NCBI GenBank assembly: GCA_023133595.1
Contig: JAGLWF010000002.1
Span: 1-64,000 of the forward strand
From: Nanobdellota archaeon
GTDB taxonomy: Archaea > Nanobdellota > Nanobdellia > Woesearchaeales > WJKV01
DNA length: 64,000 nucleotides
Reading direction: 5' to 3'
Shown: positions 58,594 through 59,456 of the stretch, piece after piece
Numbering within the stretch: position 1 is the first letter of the stretch
Layout of the letters: the number at the start of each line of letters is the position of its first letter
Made by a program: the position numbers and the translations under genes
Notes under the pieces: model-generated
The model's input: the letters and a program-made list of their open reading frames with translations, nothing else
Told to the model about the DNA's origin: nothing
The model's database searches: none

Positions 58594-58723
58594 CCCCGCT
58601 TAGTTCAGTGGCTAGAACGCTCGGCTGTAGATGATATCGCTGCTCGACTGTGTCTTTGGACAATGGGATGACCAGCAGTCAGCCGGGACCGAGAGATCCC
58701 CGGTTCGAGTCCGGGAGCGGGGA
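58594..58723 (+). tRNA. tRNA-Tyr (GTA) with intron
   Basis: Exons 58594-58630 and 58688-58723 give a 73-nt tRNA: acceptor CCCCGCT/AGCGGGG, D stem GTTC/GAAC, anticodon stem CTCGG/CCGAG with loop CTGTAGA, T arm CCCGG-TTCGAGT-CCGGG, discriminator A. C1-G72 is the archaeal tRNA-Tyr identity pair. The 57-nt intron (58631-58687, one-base shift possible) follows position 37. CCA is not encoded. A TATA-like CTTTTTAAACAG is about 27 nt upstream. Confidence 0.93.
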
Positions 58724-58967: not shown

Positions 58968-59097
58968 GCCCTGGTAGTGTAGTGGCCTAGCATGAAGCCC
59001 TGTCGAGGTGACATAATTGCCACAGAAAGGCTTCGACCCGGGTTCGAAAGGGCATTTAGGCTTGTAGCTTAATACCACGAAAGTCCCGGCCGGGGCG
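58968..59097 (+). tRNA. tRNA-Asp (GTC) with two introns
   Basis: Exons 58968-59005, 59028-59048 and 59084-59097 join to exactly 73 nt: acceptor GCCCTGG/CCGGGGC, anticodon stem AAGCC/GGCTT with loop CTGTCGA, variable CGAC, T arm CCGGG-TTCGAAT-CCCGG, discriminator G (Asp). Intron 1 (59006-59027) has a BHB with central helix CTGT/ACAG and bulges CGA and AAA. Intron 2 (59049-59083) lies in the T loop (59/60), with central helix TTCG/CGAA and bulges AAA and AGT; its own loop folds as TTAGGC/GCTTAA. A TTTT run follows. Confidence 0.92.
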
Positions 59098-59106
59098 TTT
59101 TCCCTT

Positions 59107-59180
59107 GGGCCGGTAGCTTAGCTCGGTAGAGCACTCGACTTTTAATCGAGTGGTCGCGGGTTCAAATCCCGCCCGGCCCA
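59107..59180 (+). tRNA. tRNA-Lys (TTT)
   Basis: A 74-nt cloverleaf without intron: acceptor GGGCCGG/CCGGCCC, anticodon stem CTCGA/TCGAG with loop CTTTTAA, T arm GCGGG-TTCAAAT-CCCGC, discriminator A. CCA is not encoded. It starts 9 bp after the tRNA-Asp and ends 33 bp before rpoH. Confidence 0.96.
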
Positions 59181-59213: not shown

Positions 59214-59456
59214 ATGGCTAAAGACGATTATCTAGATAAACATGAGCTTATCCCTAAGCATACAAAATTAGGCGAGCGCGCAGTGAAAGAGTTGCTTGCA
59301 ACTTTTAATATTTCAAAGGTGCAGCTCCCAAAAATTCTTGCTTCTGATGTTGTTGTAAAAAATCTTGGTTTGAAGATCGGCGATATTGTCAAGATAGAAA
59401 GAAAAAGTCCAACAGCAGGAAAGAGTACATATTACAGGGTGGTTGCAGATGGCTAA
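59214..59456 (+). CDS. rpoH: RNA polymerase subunit H (Rpo5)
   Basis: This encodes 80 residues. Rpo5 is the small jaw subunit found only in archaeal and eukaryotic polymerases. HELIPKHTKLGERAVKELL and KIGDIVKIERKSPTAGKSTYYRVV are the family signature; it matches archaeal length. There is no clear TATA box between the tRNA-Lys and this ATG, so the operon promoter may lie upstream of the tRNAs. The next gene overlaps its stop by 8 bases. Confidence 0.96.
   Translation: MAKDDYLDKHELIPKHTKLGERAVKELLATFNISKVQLPKILASDVVVKNLGLKIGDIVKIERKSPTAGKSTYYRVVADG

Follow-up and report, generated by a model that had tools for sequence, protein, structure and literature searches.

Positions 58968 to 59097 of the window (the whole stretch of DNA analysed, 64,000 nucleotides) hold a tRNA-Asp(GUC) gene that is split by two introns, one of them in the T loop. 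We hold with high confidence that this is a working gene whose two bulge-helix-bulge (BHB) introns are cut by the splicing endonuclease EndA and whose exons are joined by the ligase RtcB. Read directly from the sequence, and all on the forward strand, the gene comprises exon 1 (58968 to 59005; 38 nt, tRNA positions 1 to 37, with anticodon GTC), intron 1 (59006 to 59027; 22 nt, at the canonical position 37/38), exon 2 (59028 to 59048; 21 nt, positions 38 to 59), intron 2 (59049 to 59083; 35 nt, at position 59/60 in the T loop), and exon 3 (59084 to 59097; 14 nt, positions 60 to 73, including discriminator G). With both introns removed, a regular 73-nt tRNA-Asp is obtained in which the acceptor stem and the D, anticodon, and T arms are all complete; the acceptor has 7 bp including one G-U, the anticodon loop reads CTGTCGA, and the T arm is CCGGG-TTCGAAT-CCCGG. 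This bears out the original prediction, made from the letters of the window, that the gene carries two BHB introns whose removal gives an exact 73-nt tRNA, and that taking out 59049 to 59083 restores the T arm, a seven-position acceptor with one G-U, and the discriminator G. An intronless tRNA-Lys(TTT) gene (59107 to 59180) lies 9 nt 3′ of tRNA-Asp, and the Asp-Lys pair is followed by an rpoH-like open reading frame (59214 to 59456) that served as a synteny marker. A further neighbor, separate from the Asp gene, is a tRNA-Tyr gene (58594 to 58723; 54.2 bits in the Rfam search) whose anticodon region contains an intron. All three are on the forward strand.

The RNAfold minimum-free-energy structure of the unspliced gene shows both BHBs without any constraint. 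The motif of intron 1 has the central helix CUGU/ACAG with bulges CGA/AAA, and that of intron 2 has UUCG/CGAA with bulges AAA/AGU. Each motif folded alone has a z score of -2.67 against shuffles, with equally stable shuffles found in 3/200 cases for intron 1 and 1/200 for intron 2. Intron 1 corresponds to the canonical 37/38 BHB (4-bp central helix, two 3-nt bulges, cuts after the second bulge base) and is a strict hBHBh′ motif with an inner helix of 5 bp. Intron 2 shows the same 4-bp central helix and two 3-nt bulges at 59/60, the central helix TTCG/CGAA stacking on the T stem, which acts as the outer helix, and its excision restores the T loop and T stem. The claim that the two introns share this architecture holds with one refinement, namely, that the inner helix of intron 2 is weak: it consists of two G-C pairs and one unpaired A beside the central helix, followed by a 7-bp hairpin. 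The intervening A sets intron 2 apart from the strict subtype, in which the inner helix h′ adjoins the bulges; the requirement applies to that subtype alone, since relaxed forms also count as members, and both the position and the pairing of intron 2 are conserved in relatives (see below). From these structures we infer a pathway, including cleavage, ligation, and the order in which the two introns are spliced. The transcript would fold so that a BHB at the anticodon stem is formed by intron 1 and a second BHB, with the T stem as outer helix, by intron 2. EndA, encoded by one alpha-type gene and probably homotetrameric, would then cleave each 3-nt bulge between its second and third bases, and RtcB would ligate the exons into the 73-nt tRNA.

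The same intron site is occupied in related genomes. The rpoB-like gene near the tRNA pair has its best matches in Woesearchaeota and Nanoarchaeia genomes, with 80% identity to its counterpart in L012. The Asp-Lys-rpoH-rpoB gene order is conserved in relatives, with tRNA-Asp upstream of tRNA-Lys and rpoH in L002 to L010 and L012, and a 59/60 T-loop intron is present in 10/10 of these syntenic tRNA-Asp genes. The ten introns are 16 to 84 nt long and mostly unrelated in inner sequence. That of L012, from the same family, is homologous in sequence to window intron 2 and identical to the intron of the sister genome G001, the only other genome sampled from this family; the 37/38 intron is absent from L012. 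At L011, tRNA-Asp is intronless and located elsewhere, and the tRNA-Lys carries a T-loop intron. Besides the T-loop intron, the tRNA-Asp genes of L004, L006, and L007 have a D-loop insert. At L009 (4430 to 5000), the T-loop introns of the adjacent tRNA-Asp and tRNA-Lys genes share their start (TTCGAATGGTT...) and their end (AGAAAAT), a sequence likeness that suggests spread of the intron between tRNA genes.

The survey was extended to 288 genomes of the order (Woesearchaeota-like) by two pattern searches in which only the exon ends were fixed and the intron's pairing strand was left unspecified. In this way 115 T-loop introns, 111 of them distinct, were recovered from tRNA-Asp-like genes of about 114 of the 288 genomes, a lower bound since the pattern was strict and allowed zero mismatches. 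The partners of positions 54 to 57 form 4/4 pairs in 91 of the 111 distinct introns and at least 3/4 in all of them. Covariation is seen between position 57 and its partner in the intron (A-T 70, G-C 17, G-T 9, and C never opposite A), and 0 of 20,000 permutations matched the observed Watson-Crick count, a result inflated by shared ancestry because the permutation test ignores the relatedness of the genomes. Alignment A1, with 100% pairing, was excluded as evidence because pairing had been a criterion in choosing its sequences; the 111 introns, which had not been selected in this way, were used instead. The T-loop introns of this order-wide tRNA-Asp set range from 12 to 58 nt (20 nt or less in 31/111) and their inner sequences vary freely, which argues for selection on the BHB motif. 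A strict inner helix of at least 2 pairs is present in 42/111, with less than 2 bp in the other 69. On this comparative evidence, i.e., the ten syntenic genes, the 111 distinct introns, the central helix with at least 3/4 pairs, and the covariation at position 57, we take the T-loop intron to be functional.

T-loop introns are not confined to tRNA-Asp. A scan for complete tRNAs with such introns in about 1 Mb of fetched loci gave 76 matches, compared to 1 in reversed sequence and 0 to 1 in five shuffles, and the matches span the isotypes Asp, Lys, Ile, Arg, Pro, and Tyr, as judged from anticodon loops read by eye. T-loop introns were also seen at one Bathyarchaeota and one Diapherotrites locus (L016 and L068). 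A covariance model of the T-loop intron motif had four matches in the window genome, tRNA-Asp among them; three of the four were training sequences, the gene on C4 being newly found. The other three are tRNA-Ile(TAT) (C34:71356-71420), a tRNA with a CAT anticodon (C4:1774-1830; L206), and tRNA-Arg(TCT) (C38:44053-44137), each apparently with an anticodon-loop intron as well. The view in the original prediction that such introns are uncommon in genomes of this kind is thus contradicted by all ten syntenic genes, by about 114 of the 288 genomes, and by at least three other tRNAs of the window genome itself.

The window genome has a single EndA gene (C1:151522-152007), whose 190-aa product carries both Pfam domains (PF02778 and PF01974) and the catalytic Y/H/K triad. 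It has the sequence characters of the alpha4 type (a single gene of ~180 aa, both domains, Y/H/K, no second subunit gene), and as a single unit of 190 aa it does not correspond to the epsilon-2 type, a fused three-unit protein of ~390 aa with an ASL. A LigT-like 2′-5′ RNA ligase/phosphodiesterase gene and a TRAM-domain gene adjoin endA on the opposite strand (L001 86-1101). In an alignment of 20 EndA proteins of the order, the Y/H/K residues are conserved and the L10 loop is acidic, like that of the Methanocaldococcus jannaschii homotetramer; the CSL, an insertion of ~10 residues between 'YG' and the LSLIE helix that is present in Sulfolobus 2cv8, is absent in 20/20. Judged by these sequences, EndA of the window lineage is probably a homotetramer. 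Alpha4 enzymes have been described as narrow, cutting canonical BHBs only (PMC4033280, PMC6379350), and relaxed motifs have been tied to (alpha-beta)2 or epsilon-2 EndA with a CSL or ASL (PMC4033280, PMC6379350, PMC12397907). Given this reputation and the weak inner helix of intron 2, efficient cleavage by the window EndA is an assumption.

Intron and enzyme are therefore mismatched, and either the alpha-type EndA has a broad specificity despite lacking the loop or there is a second subunit that went undetected. The latter explanation concerns the enzyme only and would leave nothing unusual about it, EndA being heteromeric and of broad specificity. It has in its favor that the closest solved structure to the window EndA is 3iey_A, from the heteromeric enzyme of Nanoarchaeum equitans (alpha subunit), and that structural beta subunits can diverge strongly. 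Even so, we consider it rather unlikely: no second EndA gene was found in the window genome, and throughout the order, a few exceptions aside, one gene per genome has either EndA domain, including in G010, a single-contig genome scored 100% complete. Moreover, the acidic L10 loop kept here as in M. jannaschii is reduced in the catalytic subunits of N. equitans and Sulfolobus.

RtcB was not found in the window assembly. Since it is present in 92/99 relatives, the sister genome G001 included, its absence is most likely due to incompleteness of the assembly (91.7% complete), and a different ligase in its place, for which the LigT-like gene near endA came into consideration, is for the same reason not preferred. 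In several genomes of the order, the rtcB coding sequence is itself broken by predicted BHB introns of 12 to 33 nt at a few fixed sites near the catalytic motifs, i.e., within the Tyr codon of xGYGFP, after PDGH, and before and inside GFDINCG (loci from G037, G067, G224, G243, G271, G258, and other genomes of the same order). A scripted test showed that a single way of excising BHB-framed inserts, and no other, restores MPDxHxGYGFP...G(F/Y)DINCG in L185, L188, L193, L195, L196, and L198; the introns resolved in these six genomes have inner helices of 5 to 10 bp, except for one relaxed 12-nt intron in L198. The script gave no resolution for L192, L194, L197, L199, and L200, where rtcB has stops or breaks at the same sites, or for L187; for L186, inspection by eye gave a fit at the Tyr-codon site. 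As read from these genes, the RtcB ligase would be required for splicing of its own mRNA; no published report of BHB introns in rtcB was found in the literature searched. In G026, G077, G078 (L190), and G085, rtcB has open frames of ~980 to 1000 codons in which the match to the family is interrupted after residue 28 to 50, which looks like an intein.

Whether the order's alpha4-like EndA, devoid of CSL and ASL, removes both the relaxed bulge-helix-loop T-loop introns of tRNA-Asp and other tRNAs (down to 12 nt) and the BHB introns of the rtcB mRNA seems to us an evenly balanced question. If it does, the accepted view that relaxed or non-canonical introns go with specific enzyme loops would no longer hold, and production of the ligase would become dependent on ligation.

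Very improbable, in our judgment, is that the tRNA-Asp gene is a decaying pseudogene, broken by its T-loop insert while another tRNA-Asp does the work. Such decay would agree with the failure of the gene finders, which, as foreseen in the original prediction, miss the gene (ARAGORN reported tRNA-Lys as the sole tRNA, and Rfam at the gathering threshold matched only tRNA-Tyr and tRNA-Lys), and with the presence in the assembly of one other tRNA-Asp(GTC), intronless, at C24:667-738. However, every exon stem of the split gene is intact, the insertion site is retained across many families with covarying pairs, and no further archaeal tRNA-Asp was found in searches of the window genome. As to the intronless gene, a second complete tRNA-Asp(GTC) had been named in advance as counterevidence and formally exists, but C24 (L082, 1-7781) carries ~15 tightly packed tRNAs, this one among them, and encodes a DNA polymerase III alpha of bacterial type together with a PD-(D/E)XK nuclease and an HNH endonuclease. 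From this gene content we take C24 to be a phage contig misbinned with the archaeon, so that its tRNA-Asp, rejected as a rescue gene, does not refute the split one; it might serve translation if C24 belonged to a resident virus. Scarcely credible, too, is that the T-loop insert is merely BHB-like and leaves by a non-EndA route, e.g., as a self-splicing or mobile element, for although 69/111 introns at this site have less than 2 bp of strict inner helix, a group I or II ribozyme would not fit into introns of 12 to 58 nt, the cut sites obey the BHB rule, and the covariation falls exactly in the BHB central helix.

Beyond the working tRNA-Asp(GUC) gene with its two BHB introns, the added interest lies in the order-wide conservation of the T-loop intron and in an enzyme whose type does not match that of the introns. 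One consequence for annotation is that, wherever T-loop introns are left unmodelled, tRNA counts in this order and the completeness estimates that depend on them will be too low. For enzymology, a whole order with relaxed introns and without a special EndA loop would be a counterexample to current reviews. In evolutionary terms, one tRNA-Asp T-loop site is occupied across many families while the inner sequence is free to change, and this combination makes it a good system for studying how introns are gained, lost, and passed between tRNA species.

Non-canonical tRNA introns, including those at 59/60, are known in Thermoproteales and other archaea, and 59/60 introns and multi-intron tRNAs have been recorded, in Nanoarchaeota too (reviewed in PMC4090602); a direct report of Woesearchaeota or DPANN tRNA introns was not found in the literature searched (mostly without subscription journals). 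The introns described here resemble the Thermoproteales type in position, BHB logic, co-occurrence with a 37/38 intron, and presence in several isotypes, but they occur in a Woesearchaeota-like order, with the tRNA-Asp intron conserved across families and a single alpha-type EndA without CSL. ARMAN (Micrarchaeota, PMC12397907) is likewise small and of DPANN type, and it too has introns away from the anticodon loop; its EndA, in contrast, is a fused three-unit epsilon-2 protein with an ASL, whereas that of the window lineage is a single unit of ~180 to 200 aa with no insertion at the ASL site. The (alpha-beta)2 EndA of N. equitans (3IEY) is the closest solved homologue and has a reported broad substrate range, but no second EndA gene was detected here, and the tRNA-Asp locus has cis introns, not split tRNAs. 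The alpha4 EndA of M. jannaschii (1A79) shares the domain architecture, the lack of a CSL, and the acidic L10 loop; that enzyme is classed as 'narrow' (PMC6379350), whereas the window lineage has many relaxed T-loop introns.
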